Both the position numbers and the translations under genes were made by a program. Positions 37,683-43,317 of a stretch of 64,000 nucleotides of DNA are shown piece after piece. The stretch covers positions 6,247,020-6,311,019 of the forward strand of contig AP017605.1 of the NCBI GenBank assembly GCA_002356515.1, in the 5' to 3' direction. Below the pieces are notes generated by a model. That model searched no databases, had not been told where the DNA came from, and saw only the letters and a program-made list of their open reading frames with translations. Numbering within the stretch: the stretch's first letter is position 1; every line of letters begins with the position of its first letter. The stretch is from Mesorhizobium loti. Its GTDB lineage: Bacteria > Pseudomonadota > Alphaproteobacteria > Rhizobiales > Rhizobiaceae.

Positions 37683-37946
37683 TCAATACCCTTCGGGACA
37701 CCGCGCAACATAGACGCGCCCTTGGCGATCTCGGTAACGGCACTGGCCAGCCTCGCTGGCGTGCCCGATTACCGCGCCGGCGATGGCACCCGCGGCACCA
37801 CCAACGATCGCGCCTTGCACCGGGTTCCCAGCCACGGCCGCGCCGATTGCCGCCCCACCCAATCCGCCGACTGCGGCACCCTGTTCCGTGCGTGAGCATG
37901 CAACAAGTGGAACGAGAAGGCTCAATACGAGCAGTGTTTTCTTCAT
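37683..37946 (-). CDS. Glycine-zipper lipoprotein
   Basis: 87 residues from ATG 37946 with CTGGAGAAA upstream. Lipoprotein signal KKTLLVLSLLVPLVAC with lipobox LVAC, then a glycine zipper (GGLGGAAIGAAVAGNPVQGA and IVGGAAGAIAGAVIGH), and a small Cys-containing tail (GQCRYRDRQGRVYVARCPEG). Such OsmB/SlyB-like proteins sit in the outer membrane and rise under envelope stress. A mutated copy of its 5' part is fused to a LolA gene at 39215. Confidence 0.8.
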   Translation of the reverse strand: MKKTLLVLSLLVPLVACSRTEQGAAVGGLGGAAIGAAVAGNPVQGAIVGGAAGAIAGAVIGHASEAGQCRYRDRQGRVYVARCPEGY

Positions 37947-38246
37947 GAGTTTTCTCCAGCAGCCCAAAATTGAGCCGGAGGCTAAATGCGCCGTTTGCAT
38001 TTTCGATCCATCATGTCTCTAATTTAGATGATGCTAAGATGTGTTGTGGGGTATGACGTGCAAAGCCCACATCGTGGACCTCAGTTCGCTTGAAGCTTCG
38101 CCCCGCGCGTCGGCAGGTAGGGAACTCCCCTCTTGGTATACTGTTCGGGGAGGAGGGCTCTCGGAATGTGCGGGACAACATGATCGTCCACCCGCTTGCC
38201 CGCAGTGGCGATGACAAAGCCGCCCCTCACCTCGATCAGTCGATGG

Positions 38247-38939: not shown

Positions 38940-38964
38940 GGAACATTAGCTGTCTCTAAAGGTT
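38940..38964 (+). promoter_or_regulatory. EcfG-type promoter of hairpin element A
   Basis: GGAAC (38940-38944), 17 nt, GTT (38962-38964). The site starts GGAACATTAG, as does the promoter of element C at 42962, so promoter and hairpins were copied together. Confidence 0.7.
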
Positions 38965-38970
38965 TGTTCG

Positions 38971-39050
38971 TGCGGCAGGGCGGGCTCCCCTGCTGAAGAT
39001 CGGTAACCGATCGGCCCGCGCTCCCCACCGCCAGGGGCGCGCGGGCTTTC
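38971..39050 (+). ncRNA. Candidate stress-induced small RNA, hairpin element A
   Basis: A predicted transcript of about 80 nt from the EcfG promoter to a terminator-like hairpin. It holds CCTGCTGAA, a small stem GATCGG-TAA-CCGATC (38998-39012), then a long stem GCCCGCGC (39014-39021) with GCGCGGGC (39039-39046), extended by CCCC/GGGG, and TTTC. No open frame fits. Related elements are at 41831 and 43021. The promoter-to-terminator size and C-rich loops resemble general-stress small RNAs such as GsrN of Caulobacter, but no homology is claimed. Confidence 0.5.
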
Positions 39051-39214
39051 CTTCCACATGGCCGGCGCTCAGCTCGATCGCGCGCTACGAAGACCAAGAA
39101 GACGAGCACGGCCCCTCGGTGCGAATGTATGAAAGCTCCGTTGCTTGCTTTGACGGATCGAAAAACTCCGTGGCGCATTAAACTTCGGCTAATGGTTGAA
39201 CCAGGAAAGAACCA

Positions 39215-39943
39215 ATGAAGAGGACGTTGCTCGTTTTGAGCCGGCTCATTCCACTCGCTGCAACCTCCCGCACCGAACAGGGTGCAGCCGTCGGGCGGCT
39301 TGGGTGGCGCAGCCATAGGCGCGGCAGACTGTTGGCCTTCTGCTTTGGCGTTGTGACCTTTGCAGCGATTAATTTCGAACTTACGACTGCGGTCTCTGCC
39401 GCGCCTGTGGAAGCGGCGACGATCGCCGATCACTTCTCATCCGTGAAGTCCATGTCTGGGGACTTTGTCCAGTCTGGCCCAAGAGCGGAGAAGACCAGCG
39501 GCAGATTTTTCCTCCAGCGTCCGGGCAAGCTGCGGTTCGACTACGGAGGCCGATCAGGGATCGGCTTAATTGCAGATGGAAAATCCGTCGTAATCTATAA
39601 AAAAAAGCTCAAGACATCGCGCCTCTATTCCCTCTCGAAAATACCGCTTAAGCTGCTGCTCGAAGACCAGGTCGAGTTCTCTGGCAGTCGCCTCAAAAGC
39701 ATCAAAGACGATGGTGCCCAAATCATCATTAAGCTGGGTGACAAGTCGGTTTTCGGAAATTCGAACATCACTATGGTGTTTGACAAGACATCGTTAGATC
39801 TACGCAGATGGAGCCTCACCGACGAGAGGGGGCAAAGCACCACGGTCACTATTTTCAATGTGAAGCAGGGCGTCCGCGCTCCCCCGGGCACCTTCACTAT
39901 CGATTATGCGGCAAACCGTGAGCTCAACACCACAACGAAATAA
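39215..39943 (+). CDS. LolA-like protein with an N-terminus taken from the glycine-zipper lipoprotein
   Basis: 242 residues. The first 22 residues (KRTLLVLSRLIPLAATSRTE, QGAAVG) copy the lipoprotein at 37946, but the lipobox Cys has become Thr. A one-base insertion then turns the glycine zipper into RLGWRSHRRGR. From about residue 45 follows a second signal-like stretch (LLAFCFGVVTFAAINFELTT, AVSAA) and a LolA domain: VKSMSGDFVQSGPRAEKTSG, RFFLQRPGKLRFDYGG, then DKTSLDLRRWSLTDERGQST. LolA carries lipoproteins across the periplasm. The true start could be a TTG near 39332 that leaves only the second signal. Confidence 0.7.
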   Translation: MKRTLLVLSRLIPLAATSRTEQGAAVGRLGWRSHRRGRLLAFCFGVVTFAAINFELTTAVSAAPVEAATIADHFSSVKSMSGDFVQSGPRAEKTSGRFFLQRPGKLRFDYGGRSGIGLIADGKSVVIYKKKLKTSRLYSLSKIPLKLLLEDQVEFSGSRLKSIKDDGAQIIIKLGDKSVFGNSNITMVFDKTSLDLRRWSLTDERGQSTTVTIFNVKQGVRAPPGTFTIDYAANRELNTTTK

Positions 39944-39984
39944 TTGTCGCGATCCGACAGAGGTGCTGGAATATGGAGCGTCGT

Positions 39985-40090
39985 ACAGTCGTTCATATCG
40001 CCACACCGTGACCAGTCCCGGGCGATCCGATCCTACATAAGGGCCCGCTCGGGGCTGTCCGATATGACCCAGAGGTAAGTCGAGTTCAAG
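39985..40090 (+). pseudogene. Relic of the 47180-type small gene
   Basis: Reads VVQSFISPHRDQSRAIRSYI, then a stop and VEFKFV in one frame. Compare KPFISPHCDHYRATRVLHET and VEFIRWF in the intact gene at 47180. About a third of that gene is recognisable, without start. Confidence 0.55.
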
Positions 40091-40213
40091 TTTGTGGAAC
40101 ACCTCAAGGCCGCACGCCGGCCTGAAGCTTGATAGCCCAACAGGCCTAATTGCGAACTGGGTAGTGTACGGATAAACCAATCAGGGCGGGGAGGAACCCG
40201 AAAGCCCCACCGC

Positions 40214-40264
40214 AACGGCCGGTGCGGCGTCTGTTACCCCTACGCCCACCCCGCACCGGCCGTT
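40214..40264 (-). terminator. Perfect 14-bp inverted repeat after the 40279 gene
   Basis: AACGGCCGGTGCGG (40214-40227) pairs with CCGCACCGGCCGTT (40251-40264), loop 23 nt. It starts about 15 nt after the stop of the minus-strand gene. There is no T run, so it may be a Rho-assisted terminator or an mRNA-stabilising 3' end. Confidence 0.5.
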
Positions 40265-40278
40265 CCCCAACGGTAAGG

Positions 40279-40470
40279 TCATAGGCGGTCGAAATCGGCA
40301 AGGCCGAGACGTCTTCGCTGGCCCTCGGCATACGCCAGAGCGAACGACTCTAGTTCAAATGAGCGGGTTAGTTCTTCGTCGCCATCGACCACGCGGACGA
40401 ACCATTCTCCGCAGGCTTCGAGCACTTCAACGCAGGGATTGACCTTGCTGCCAGGCGTCACGCTATCCAC
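40279..40470 (-). CDS. Small acidic hypothetical protein
   Basis: 63 residues from GTG 40470, with CAGGAG upstream. VDSVTPGSKVNPCVEVLEAC, GEWFVRVVDGDEELTRSFEL, ESFALAYAEGQRRRLGLADF. The pattern (strand, EWFVRVVDGDEE, then helix ALAYAEGQRRRL) recalls DUF2188-type small proteins, but the match is weak. A broken copy of its start lies at 41737-41829. Confidence 0.6.
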   Translation of the reverse strand: MDSVTPGSKVNPCVEVLEACGEWFVRVVDGDEELTRSFELESFALAYAEGQRRRLGLADFDRL

Positions 40471-40680
40471 CGCAGTCTCCTGAGAAAGCAACGGTGAATG
40501 TCGGGCATTGTATGGCTCTGAAACTTGCTGTCGCAATTAAAAAGACATACCCGCCAACCCTCGCCAGCGTCATCGCCGGGGGCGTAGGGGACTTCAGTCG
40601 CAGTTGCGCGGTTGCTAATATGCCCATAGTTTTTAGGCGATGCGGGGAACGCCTAGTTGCTCTCAACTGTATTGCGAGAA

Positions 40681-40902
40681 ATGCTCATTTGCGAATGCGG
40701 TCGCACCGGGTATTTGAAACTACGGGAAGACGAACAGCCTCTCAGTGGCCCTTGGGAATCTTACAGCTTGGAGGGGTTCAACGGCGGTAGCCTGACGATC
40801 ACCAGTTTCGGGAACATTCCAGGCGACAAGTTGGTCTATCTCCGTCCCTTGTGTCCTCAATGCAGCCAGTGGGGCAAGGTGAAGTATGCCAGCCGGAGCT
40901 GA
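40681..40902 (+). CDS. Small zinc-ribbon-like protein
   Basis: 73 residues from ATG 40681. CEC at residues 4-6 and PLCPQC near residue 60 could bind one zinc ion; the middle (LTITSFGNIPGDKLVYLRPL) is strand-like. The site before the start is weak (GCGAGAA). It is one of four small putative zinc-ribbon proteins in the 38-46 kb region. Confidence 0.55.
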   Translation: MLICECGRTGYLKLREDEQPLSGPWESYSLEGFNGGSLTITSFGNIPGDKLVYLRPLCPQCSQWGKVKYASRS

Positions 40903-41099
40903 GGCCGCAAGAAAGGCCTACGTTTTCGGCGTATTCGAGAAACCGCACTGGCGCGCCATCCTAACCACCAAGTACAGATCCGAAGCAGAGGCGCTTTGAG
41001 CGCGCAATGATCCAGGACAGCGTAAAGGCGCGGGTCGAGGAGATCTCGCCGAGGCCGAAGAATCAGGGCGTTCAGAATAGACCAAGACGAGTGGTGTGA
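40886..41099 (+). pseudogene. Frameshifted copy of a small conserved gene family
   Basis: From ATG 40886: AYVFGVFEKPHWRAILTTKY, RSEAEAL, then TGA. This aligns with SYIVSVFDKHRWRTILTTVD, KGEAEAL of the gene at 41913. After the stop another frame continues RAMIQDSVKARVEEISPRPK, like the VRVEEITPKPKK of the gene at 47632. One or two bases lost near 40998 broke it. Confidence 0.6.
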
Positions 41100-41336
41100 A
41101 GCGGCGAGGCGCGCCCCACGGCCCCAACAGCCGGCATTGCTGACAGTCCAATTGTTGGGCCAGCGGCTATTGATCCATTATGGGACGGAAGGATCGGTCA
41201 CCGCATATTTAAGCGCATCGTCTGGCCCACTCGGGCGCCTTCCGATGCGCGCAAGAGCGGTCAATAGCGCGTTCCTCCGCCGGCAAGTCGACGCGCAGCG
41301 GCGCCTCCTCCTTCTCCCGTTCGCGCTCAAGCCGAT
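41100..41336. other. Intergenic stretch
   Basis: No gene recognised. Confidence 0.3.
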
Positions 41337-41621
41337 TTACCCACGGGCAGAGGTTGCTAATCCTTGGGCTTCAGCTGCCATGCATGCGTCACGGGCGACT
41401 GCATAGGCCGGAAGATGCGCCTTGTGGCGACGATGGCCTAGCGCTGGGTTGATCATGCTTTCGTCGGGCTCGTTGTCGCTGAAGTCTCTAAGAAGCATCT
41501 TGGCGTGTTCTGCCCAATGCTCTTCAGCCAGGTTTGTCTCGCGAACCAACTTCCTGAAAGCCTCGCGTACGATGTCGAAGGCGAATGCCGAAATGTGTCT
41601 GCCTGCATGGTCATGCGCCAT
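41337..41621 (-). CDS. Hypothetical protein, start uncertain
   Basis: 94 residues from ATG 41621; the frame is open to 41753. MAHDHAGRHISAFAFDIVRE, AFRKLVRETNLAEEHWAEHA, KMLLRDFSDNEPDESMINPA, then a His/Arg-rich end. The first part looks like a folded helix pair. No family and no strong ribosome site. Confidence 0.45.
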   Translation of the reverse strand: MAHDHAGRHISAFAFDIVREAFRKLVRETNLAEEHWAEHAKMLLRDFSDNEPDESMINPALGHRRHKAHLPAYAVARDACMAAEAQGLATSARG

Positions 41622-41736
41622 TGACTGCTCGATTTCATACCAATTTGTAAGGCAGGCCCTCACGGCTGGATGGCCTACAATGGCGGCTCGGTTCCTATTG
41701 CCCCTAGAGCCTCCGAGCCGGCCGTCCGCAAACTCA

Positions 41737-41829
41737 GGTGCCATCGACCACACGGACGAACCATTCTCCGCAGGCTTAGATCACTTCAACGCGAGGATTG
41801 ACCTTGCTGTCATGCGTAAGGCTGTCCAG
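41737..41829 (-). repeat. Broken copy of the start of the 40279 gene
   Basis: About 90 bp matching 40379-40475 with a premature stop (V-E-V-I-stop where the gene has VEVLEACGEWF). It replaces the region in which hairpin element B would be expected to have its EcfG promoter. Confidence 0.75.
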
Positions 41830-41830
41830 T

Positions 41831-41891
41831 CCTGCCGAAGATCGGGCCTCCGATCGGCCCGCGCACCTCTGGCCGAGAAGCGCGGGCTTTC
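41831..41891 (+). ncRNA. Hairpin element B (5' leader of the gene at 41913)
   Basis: CCTGCCGAAGATCGG, a short loop, CCGATC, then GCCCGCGC (41857-41864) with GCGCGGGC (41880-41887) and TTTC. Same order as elements A and C, but no GGAAC-N17-GTT lies upstream. Ends 21 nt before the start codon of the next gene. Confidence 0.45.
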
Positions 41892-41912
41892 AATATTCCC
41901 GAAAGGGCAGAG

Positions 41913-42170
41913 ATGGCCGCCACGAGCTACATCGTCAGCGTCTTCGACAAGCACCGCTGGCGTACCATCCTGACGACAGTGGACAAGGGCGAAGCCGAGG
42001 CGCTCAAGCAGTCGACGATCCACGACCCGATATGCCCGTGCGTCGGCCGACGCAGTTCGGGCTATCGTCGCATGGGAGCCACAATGCCACCTGCGTGGCG
42101 AGATCTGTGGCAAGCTTCTTCGCAGGAGTTCTGGGAGGACAATCATGCCAATTCGGCGAAAGGCAACTGA
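41913..42170 (+). CDS. Small hypothetical protein
   Basis: 85 residues from ATG 41913 behind GAAAGGGCAG. MAATSYIVSVFDKHRWRTIL, TTVDKGEAEALKQSTIHDPI resembles a small alpha/beta domain and is shared with the pseudogene at 40886. The second half (MGATMPPAWRDLWQASSQEF) may result from a shift or fusion. Its leader contains hairpin element B. Confidence 0.5.
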   Translation: MAATSYIVSVFDKHRWRTILTTVDKGEAEALKQSTIHDPICPCVGRRSSGYRRMGATMPPAWRDLWQASSQEFWEDNHANSAKGN

Positions 42171-42326
42171 GGCCGGTATCTTTGATCCAGCCGAAATGGC
42201 TCTGCTGGGTCGGGTGTTCGAGCAGCTGAAGCTCGAACATCAATCGTCCGATGAGCGTGACGCAATCGGCAGGCATTGTCGATGAGGATGAGCTGGTCTC
42301 TCTATCCAGGCAACCGCTGGGTCGTT
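42145..42326 (+). pseudogene. Small conserved gene with a frameshift near its 3' end
   Basis: From ATG 42145 with GGGAGG 7 nt upstream: MPIRRKATEAGIFDPAEMAL, LGRVFEQLKLEHQSSDERDA, then IGRHCR and stop at 42285. In another frame the next codons read GIVDEDELVSLSRQPLGR and stop at 42326, which looks like the natural end. The intermediate codons seem lost. That the two pieces belong together is an inference from the reading. Confidence 0.5.
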
Positions 42327-42569
42327 AGAGAAACAGGGCGGAACTTAAACCTAGTGGTCGAGCCCCATGAGCGCGCGGAAGCAATCCGGGATCAGTGGAT
42401 CGCTAACAGCGTCCCCAAGACGATGAAAGCCGATGTCATCCTGGTCGATGAACTCACGCACAAGCTAATCGCGGACGCCAAGGCCCTCGGGATCAGGCGG
42501 GGTGAAATCGATGAAGAGGTGGATAGCCCTTACCGTACGATCCTCGACGCCATCGAGCACCCTGCTTGA
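42282..42569 (+). CDS. DUF768 protein with a foreign N-terminus
   Basis: 95 residues. From DQWIANSVPKTMKADVILVD to ADAKALGIRRGEIDEEVDSP, YRTILDAIEH it matches the intact DUF768 gene at 46883 throughout. The first 35 residues (MRMSWSLYPGNRWVVRETGR...) do not and overlap the frameshifted gene at 42145. DUF768 is a family of unknown function restricted to Mesorhizobium and close relatives. No ribosome site is clear. Confidence 0.6.
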   Translation: MRMSWSLYPGNRWVVRETGRNLNLVVEPHERAEAIRDQWIANSVPKTMKADVILVDELTHKLIADAKALGIRRGEIDEEVDSPYRTILDAIEHPA

Positions 42570-42614
42570 TTTCCCAAGTGACCCGACGCGGTTCGCATCA
42601 ATTGGTCGCTGCTG

Positions 42615-42797
42615 TCAGGGCGCATTCCTGAGTCCGCTGCCGCGGCATTCAGGGCAGATGGCCGTCGACCCTTCACAGTCTTGGCGATGGACTGCCTGTG
42701 GGCAGCATGTGCCGTTCGAGGTCAGCCATTTCTTGCAATTGAAGACCTTGCCAGCACCGAGACATCGCCGACACTGGAACTTCCTAAAATCTGACAA
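42615..42797 (-). CDS. Small zinc-finger-like protein
   Basis: 60 residues from TTG 42797. CRRCLGAGKVFNCKKW, TSNGTCCPQAVHRQDCEG, ICPECRGSG give six to eight Cys in CxxC-like pairs, as in DnaJ-type or small zinc-ribbon proteins. Start codon and site are weak. Confidence 0.4.
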   Translation of the reverse strand: MSDFRKFQCRRCLGAGKVFNCKKWLTSNGTCCPQAVHRQDCEGSTAICPECRGSGLRNAP

Positions 42798-42961
42798 ATC
42801 CTACCTGCCGTCGCTTGAGCACGGCAGTAACGTGCTTGCCGAATTTTGGTTTCAGCTACTTCAGGCTCTGACCGGTGAACACGCTATTTGCGGCCCTCGG
42901 GGCCATTGTAAGGTCCAGGACCGGTGCGGTTCGATGCATGCGACTTTCGATCGGTTGGTCT

Positions 42962-42986
42962 GGAACATTAGGGACATCCAAGGGTT
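42962..42986 (+). promoter_or_regulatory. EcfG-type promoter of hairpin element C
   Basis: GGAAC (42962-42966), 17 nt, GTT (42984-42986), starting GGAACATTAG as in element A. Confidence 0.7.
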
Positions 42987-42992
42987 GGTGAT

Positions 42993-43083
42993 GGCGGCAG
43001 GCGATGCTCCCTCGCGTTACCTGCCGAAGATCGGGACAGAAACCTTGATCGGCCCGCGCTCTTCACGAGAGGCGCGGGCTTTC
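42993..43083 (+). ncRNA. Hairpin element C: candidate small RNA or leader of the gene at 43108
   Basis: A predicted EcfG transcript that forms CTGCCGAAGATCGG...TTGATCGG and a stem GCCCGCGC (43052-43059) with GCGCGGGC (43072-43079), loop TCTTCACGAGAG, then TTTC. Unlike element A it is followed 25 nt later by a gene, so it can be either a small RNA with read-through or a 5' attenuator. Confidence 0.5.
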
Positions 43084-43107
43084 CCAATTTATTGAAAGAG
43101 ACCGCGT

Positions 43108-43317
43108 ATGTCCCAGACCATCCAACCGCCCATATTGCCGGAGGCAAGTCCGGATCGAATGGTCAACTGCGAAGTCGCCCTGGAAACGGCATTCGCAGCC
43201 TTGGTAACCGAATCGGAGGCCCAGGGATGGACAGCGCGGGAGACCGCCGAAACCCTGCTCAAAATTGCAAGGGAACATATCCAGCTTCTGGAAGCCGGTG
43301 TCGAGGCTGAGAGCTAA
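43108..43317 (+). CDS. Small hypothetical helical protein
   Basis: 69 residues from ATG 43108 with GAAAGAG upstream. MSQTIQPPILPEASPDRMVN, CEVALETAFAALVTESEAQG, WTARETAETLLKIAREHIQL. Amphipathic helices, soluble. It stands in an EcfG unit: promoter 42962, hairpins, gene, terminator 43333. Confidence 0.65.
   Translation: MSQTIQPPILPEASPDRMVNCEVALETAFAALVTESEAQGWTARETAETLLKIAREHIQLLEAGVEAES

Follow-up and report, generated by a model that had tools for sequence, protein, structure and literature searches.

A family of hairpin elements with EcfG-type promoters in Mesorhizobium loti and related genomes

Three elements, A, B and C, in a 64,000-nt stretch of Mesorhizobium loti DNA (AP017605.1, assembly GCA_002356515.1, positions 6,247,020–6,311,019, forward strand; hereafter the window) belong to one family, as seen in their sequence, in structure with covariation, in promoter matches, in the ends of the conserved block and in distribution among the genomes sampled. 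The full unit comprises, in order, an EcfG-type promoter (consensus GGAAC-N16/17-GTT), a hairpin P1 with a usually C-rich loop, a hairpin P2 (GATCGG/CCGATC), a terminator-like hairpin P3 and a short U tract; without the promoter it measures ~80–95 nt. These results support the reading of A, B and C, made in a first-pass annotation of the window, as a new RNA-structure family with EcfG-type promoters. Judged from sequence features, and with moderate confidence, complete copies of the unit would be stress-induced, trans-acting small RNAs (sRNAs) of the general stress response.

Shared sequence and architecture

The sequence CCTGCYGAAGATCGG occurs exactly three times in the window without a mismatch, at 38989 (A), 41831 (B) and 43020 (C), and CCTGC(C/T)GAAGATCGG is common to all three elements with zero mismatches and found nowhere else in the window. 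When the pattern was extended by P2 and the GCCCGCGC/GCGCGGGC stem, five exact copies were found in the genome, against none for a reversed control pattern. A covariance model, R1, built from 22 sequences with A and C in its alignment and B outside it, matched each element at an E value of 6.1e-10 or better; the next-best match in the window (E 0.018) was C's own P3 read on the opposite strand. The R1 seeds, other than the own-genome copies, had been preselected by a pattern fixing the 3′ arm of P2 and P3; the own-genome copies match it too. This sharing, far beyond chance, confirms the kinship that had been proposed. Across the genome there are seven matches in all, namely A, B and C, three at E < 1e-6 and one weak (45.7 bits), with copies at 0.92, 1.56, 6.29–6.32 and 7.21 Mb. 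The three copies first counted are real, but the genome holds three further clear ones and one weak one.

The elements had been described as double hairpins. P2 and P3 stand, but the count of two was wrong, as folds place an extra 5′ hairpin, P1, in A and C. The stem reads CGGCAGGG(7-nt loop)CCCTGCTG in A and CGGCAGG...CCTGCCG in C; the loop of A, CGGGCTC, is unusual and is also found in L179 (L-numbers are labels for loci sampled from relatives' genomes). By sequence match, A and C each have an EcfG-type promoter directly upstream, with the common start that had been claimed, GGAACATTAG, at 38940 and at 42962; the match is perfect in A, and both have the form GGAACATTAG-N12-GTT. C is complete and identical at 89/98 positions to copy E (6318081). 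The predicted RNA from C would be ~90–95 nt, and A may possibly give a stand-alone RNA of ~80 nt.

B matches the family in sequence but is a promoterless remnant: no −35 candidate was found upstream of it, and promoter and 5′ arm of P1 are both gone. Directly upstream of B lies a gene fragment that is an 89% copy of 40381–40469. A gene related to this fragment, found by tblastn, is divergent from copy D and lies ~108 nt upstream of it, which suggests that B derives from a D-like cassette by an internal deletion.

The small genes reported after B and C were recovered. The open reading frame (ORF) past B is a partial match to a 53-amino-acid MTDKP query (41919–42005 against residues 6–34, the remainder unmatched). 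C is followed by a 69-amino-acid ORF, termed the MSQ gene, which also follows copy E and has zero Pfam matches at E 0.01. A was said to have no gene after it. No recognised small gene was found there, with the correction that the first same-strand ORF with a recognised domain, LolA, starts at 39215, ~165 nt away, and shorter unassigned frames come earlier.

Pairing, promoters and distribution of the family

R1 was applied to 100 loci chosen from 199 (same-place repeats and others left out), giving 104 matches, of which 100 were distinct. Two low-scoring rows (40.2 and 37.2 bits) were kept in the covariation, type-split, promoter and loop counts (n = 100) and omitted from the edge, gene, integrity and U-tract counts (n = 98). 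In the model-fitted alignment of the 100 copies, 98.3% of cells pair, while slid controls gave 24–47%. Double changes occupied 63 cells, as against 18.9 ± 3.2 in shuffled alignments (0/500), and were found in 11/22 pairs, as against 4.8 ± 1.1 (0/500).

Because this alignment was model-fitted and the seeds had fixed the 3′ arm of P2 and P3, 46 model-found copies, of which four also carry the original pattern, were aligned with MAFFT without structure. RNAalifold returned the same three stems. Double-change cells numbered 32 (7.0 ± 4.8 shuffled, 0/500) and double-change pairs seven (3.1 ± 1.2 shuffled, 1/500); further pair types were less clear, with 35/500 shuffles equally high. In this test the structure was derived from the same 46 rows, and the model that found them rewards pairing and so favours paired cells; kinship among sequences can by itself exceed shuffles. 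Variation was greatest in P1 and upper P3, the lower P3 stem being nearly invariant and little informative. Compensating changes in homologues, proposed at first pass as a test of the family, are thus present in both alignments, where pairing-preserving double changes exceed shuffles and slid controls.

P1 of a typical relative has 12 bp in its stem and the loop CCCTC, which occurs in exactly this form in 32/100 copies. With a broad text pattern, a C-rich motif was found within the P1 loop or next to it in 81/100 copies and in 526/2000 base-shuffled sequences; for CCCTCC within P1 the figures were 41/100 and 49/2000.

Matches to GGAACATTAG at 9 or 10 of 10 positions were seen in 83/100 sampled copies, as a sequence match only, and the spacing from the −35 candidate to [GA]TT was 17 in 68 of the 92 copies with such a candidate. 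NepR is encoded in the genome at 3.52 Mb, beside ORFs that, judged by eye, are presumably EcfG- and PhyR-like. The spacing from the −10-like GTT suggests that transcription would start near the base of P1.

The limits of the conserved unit were determined from 7535 local alignments of 3788 copy pairs, excluding alignments of ≥600 nt. The U tract (+80 to +99) was the end point of 5716 alignments. Of the start points, 3583 fell in the −35 box (−40 to −21), 3443 within the element and 181 at −51 or beyond on the upstream side. A further extension to +100 or beyond, the small-gene zone in gene-bearing copies, was seen in 1333. Since the edges cluster in this way, the conserved unit approximates a promoter and one promoter-to-terminator transcript.

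Upstream of the EcfG promoter, loci L023, L030, L035 and L038 share, by eye, a common block near CGACTGGAAGCCGAC...TTCGATCG, a possible extra control site. In loci L033, L036, L029 and L037 the relatives are divergent, and their promoters and loops differ; L033 contains CCTCCCCTCC, and L036, where two units seem to stand in tandem, CCTCCCCCTCC.

The family was located among relatives, using R1 and a second model, R2, built from 104 sequences. The exact pattern was found in 45/146 Mesorhizobium genomes, a count that may include chance matches such as L011, with zero reversed-control matches among the rows listed. R1 was positive in 87/146 at E ≤ 0.01, with 356 matches summed, a median of 3 per positive genome and 15 at most; R2 was positive in 81/146 at E ≤ 0.001, with at most 14 copies each. 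Among 297 genomes of the family (109 genera), R1 at E ≤ 0.001 gave two positives, and among 297 of the order (122 genera) R2 at E ≤ 0.01 gave four, all from Mesorhizobium. The covariance search advised at first pass thus succeeded across the genus, but these two samples held nothing outside it; the large scans, with strict filters and only a few candidates scored in each genome, may have missed weak relatives elsewhere. All eight records of a plasmid collection that match C are from Mesorhizobium; a match lies on plasmid NC_002682 of the laboratory strain MAFF303099.

The exact pattern was present in 63 contig stretches, 38 of them from Mesorhizobium. The other 25 reached at best 22.7 bits with R1, against 52–92 for clear members, and were for this reason taken as chance, so that spread beyond the genus was rejected. 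L011, from the first pattern search, has no EcfG-type promoter and was judged by eye to be a chance match; its genome has one R2 match (E 1.9e-4). We propose that the family may have spread within Mesorhizobium by duplication, with B a decayed copy.

Possible functions of the units

From the sequence features we infer transcription, EcfG dependence, termination, trans action and targets of the family. EcfG-loaded RNA polymerase would initiate at the base of P1 and halt past P3 and the short U tract; the product would be a structured RNA of ~80–95 nt. In most copies the stem of P1, up to ~12 bp long, would be capped by CCCUC(C) or another C-rich loop of this sort. Through that loop the RNA would probably bind G-rich ribosome-binding sites of target mRNAs and repress these mRNAs in trans. 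P2 and P3 would stabilise the RNA and form its end. Shine-Dalgarno-like sequences are possible pairing partners of C-rich loops, and duplex energies for four C-loops against four typical sites ranged from −5.6 to −9.5 kcal/mol, showing possibility only. About one-third of the sampled copies have a small gene whose start lies ~5–27 nt past the element. Read-through would reach this gene, and the element would there be both sRNA and leader; a cis leader is likely as a second role in these copies.

Analysis of the downstream sequences showed an MTDKP-type gene start after 29 of the 98 copies, the MSQ gene after five, remnants after 11 (a loose pattern that may include false members) and neither after 53, so that no conserved gene follows every copy. 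The MTDKP-type gene encodes 53–54 amino acids (MTDKPATTYIVSVFEKPHWRTVLTTKDK...) and is in some cases truncated or has a foreign end. By tblastn, the MTDKP family lies downstream on the same strand in 38/100 entries, and in 29 the start is projected 5–27 nt past the model match, a gap in which another promoter would hardly fit. A protein search gave 289 homologues. Among the 120 listed, the named organisms were Mesorhizobium (once under the old name Rhizobium loti); none of these carried a precomputed Pfam domain, and DUF2188 appears in some source names. In L057 the downstream ORF is chimeric, joining an MSQ-type N-terminus to an MTDKP-type C-terminus, and for this reason the cassettes seem to recombine.

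Several observations weigh against a trans-acting sRNA. With so short a U tract (mean 4.8 T in the 10 nt past P3, a TTT start in 68% of 98 copies), termination may be only partial. The P1 loop of A is not typically C-rich, and clearly G-rich P1 loops occur in 5/100 copies (the text pattern gave six, of which L024 truly has a UUCG loop). The direct succession of MTDKP-type starts and MSQ genes in 29 and five copies would fit a cis leader. Retention of the promoter (43/53) and of a C motif anywhere in P1 (45/53) is somewhat lower in geneless copies than in MTDKP-bearing ones (27/29 each).

The main alternative, unlikely though not negligible, is that the element acts as a cis leader, the hairpins being the 5′ untranslated region of stress-induced small genes, with P3 attenuating or P1 gating expression and the geneless copies decayed. 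The close downstream MTDKP starts point this way, as does the run of C and E into the MSQ gene. The retention of promoter and C motif in most of the 53 geneless copies argues against it, however, as do the two apparently unrelated gene families behind the same element and the several downstream genes that are truncated or frame-broken although the RNA part scores well.

The units might also be a dispersed non-coding repeat, a promoter and terminator cassette copied genome-wide without a regulatory function of its own; we consider this quite improbable. Flank identity of only 0.27–0.40 in group type II b (four copies, four genomes) indicates unrelated sites, and truncated copies such as B exist, but the stems are maintained by compensatory changes and the C-rich loop is retained across diverged stems. 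The split into types I and II is itself a text pattern and unstable (type II being 21/100 in one count and 16/98 in another). Flank comparison inside locus groups had a mixed outcome. In the L024/L014/L025 group, identity was 0.80–0.97 over P1–P3, 0.40–0.55 in the downstream flank, 0.70 in the promoter and 0.81 at −100 to −51. In the L052 group, flanks of 0.84–0.92 against 0.90–1.00 for the unit were little informative, and in the G-loop group described below the downstream flank was likewise well kept (0.73–0.80).

We give similarly little weight to a genus-specific system of expanding stress-RNA cassettes (promoter, C-loop sRNA, often a small gene), in which loops would diversify targets and a G-loop type would act as a sponge for C-loop copies. 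Each copy would be free to alter its loop, and target choice would thereby diversify under one stress switch; if true, some Mesorhizobium genomes carry about a dozen cassette copies under that switch. The G-loop locus type (GGGGGCA-like, complementary to C-loops) comprises an own-genome copy at 1560840 and relatives. For loop–loop duplexes of four G-loops, a fraction of 0 to 0.49 of shuffles was equally good; because shuffles were beaten so weakly, the sponge idea is a lead only. Past the G-loop elements of L016, L017, L018, L039, L076 and L194 there is a second conserved block, hairpin-like by eye (GCCCGGCRCAC...CCGGGC), and L076 and L194 have an MTEKP/MSEKP gene ~145 nt past the element.

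That the units are DNA-level palindromes, serving as protein-binding or recombination sites rather than RNA, is very improbable: the short, GC-rich inverted repeats of P2 and P3 would fit, but orientation and spacing to the promoter are fixed, a T run lies at the 3′ end, and the P1 stem varies around a conserved unpaired loop.

If the trans-acting sRNA reading is true, the general stress response in legume symbionts gains a large, apparently unnamed sRNA family. Since paralogue number varies widely between species, Mesorhizobium would be a natural setting in which to test why stress sRNAs multiply and how they are coupled to small proteins. R1 and R2 can be used for Rfam submission and for scanning existing RNA-seq data.

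Known RNAs and surroundings of the elements

The first-pass view that the family was undescribed is upheld by our searches. Rfam (4227 families) gave no match at gathering score in the window, and literature searches, mostly judged from listings and the beginnings of abstracts, returned no recognised description of this Mesorhizobium hairpin family. Weak Rfam matches (sX13, Atu_C7, Teg23, mir-637, mir-22 and Acido-1) were judged to reflect chance or the common terminator shape. The best on C was Teg23 (17.0 bits). Among the relatives' loci scanned, only Acido-1 covers most of an element (L176, opposite strand, 21.5 bits, E 1.2), and mir-22 overlaps the end of the element of L062 (opposite strand, 17.5 bits, E 4.1). 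The sX13 RNA of Xanthomonas (RF02232) also has several hairpins before a terminator, with C-rich loops and G-rich targets; its match to A (22.1 bits) is far below the gathering score of 50, it comes from another class of bacteria, and to our knowledge it is not EcfG-linked. Atu_C7 of Rhizobiales (RF02501, gathering score 45) matched A at 20.6 bits, resting largely on the terminator hairpin; the score fell to 12.6 bits with a shorter stretch, and C had no match up to E 1. The locus L038 also holds, at 2824–2939 (−) and ~180 nt from a tRNA gene, an Rfam ar14 sRNA (73.1 bits).

As to working mode, the best reading is by analogy with GsrN or the RpoE2-dependent, four-copy SmelB126. According to the excerpts available of the 2018 eLife report (PMC5869019), GsrN of Caulobacter is a sigma-T/EcfG-dependent sRNA, the interacting sites in co-purified mRNAs are mostly G-rich, and GsrN-like RNAs are proposed in other Alphaproteobacteria. 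By description, a stress-sigma promoter with a C-rich 5′ loop is common to GsrN and the Mesorhizobium family; by the broad pattern such a loop is present in 81/100 copies, clearly in C and not clearly in A. The Mesorhizobium family differs in being multicopy and often joined to small genes. The same excerpts place predicted GsrN homologues typically near ecfG/phyR (C. crescentus gsrN itself excepted) and confine GsrN BLASTn matches to Caulobacteraceae (PMC5869019). R1 found no family member within 9.5 kb around nepR, and orthology to GsrN by position was rejected for these copies.

SmelB126/smB9 of Sinorhizobium meliloti has, in the parts of two reports consulted, an RpoE2 motif, four genome copies and rpoE2 dependence by microarray (PMC7143759, PMC3616915). 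It is like the Mesorhizobium family in its GGAACATT promoter, C-rich stretch, terminator-like 3′ end, length of 111 nt by coordinates and multicopy state. No homology was found: R1 had no match in the SmelB126 region even at E 10, and the sequence differs by inspection. A multicopy stress-sigma sRNA is thus a known kind, of which the Mesorhizobium family is a distinct and larger example whose members are often coupled to small genes. Short unannotated sRNAs MH_s12, s36 and s37 appear in the portion consulted of a 2017 M. huakuii study (PMC5596092); a family member could be among them and may thus have been detected earlier.

Table 1. Coordinates of the elements and adjoining features in the window
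Feature	Position	Strand	Basis
EcfG-type promoter region of A (GGAAC, 17 nt, GTT)	38940..38967	+	sequence; copies' promoter match
A hairpin P1, 8 bp by hand reading, loop CGGGCTC not typically C-rich	38973..38995	+	folds; covariation in relatives
A hairpin P2 GATCGG/CCGATC, loop TAA	38998..39012	+	fold; model match
A hairpin P3 and TTT, terminator-like	39013..39050	+	fold; R1 match 38968–39054, 68.0 bits; block end across copies
Gene fragment where promoter and P1 5′ arm of B are expected	41740..41828	−	direct repeat; tblastn
B, truncated copy (P1 3′ arm, P2, P3, TTT)	41831..41891	+	R1 match 41810–41895, 64.5 bits
Small ORF after B	41913..42170	+	tblastn; family search
EcfG-type promoter region of C (GGAAC, 17 nt, GTT)	42962..42989	+	sequence; copies' promoter match
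C hairpin P1, C-rich loop TCCCTC	42995..43026	+	folds
C hairpin P2	43029..43050	+	fold; R1 match
C hairpin P3 and TTTC, terminator-like	43051..43083	+	R1 match 42990–43087, 78.4 bits
69-amino-acid ORF (MSQTIQPPILPEASPDRMVNCEVALE...), MSQ gene, after C; also after copy E	43108..43317	+	ORF list; tblastn

Among the surrounding features, a DUF768 protein is encoded between B and C (42276–42569, +). A second remnant of the MTDKP family was found by tblastn at 40919–40996 (+), where R1 shows no RNA element. The LolA-domain ORF past A spans 39215–39943 (+, E 5.5e-30); by eye, its N-terminus resembles that of a minus-strand ORF at 37683–38000 (MKKTLLVLSLLVPLVACSRTEQGAAVG), which suggests a possible gene fusion.

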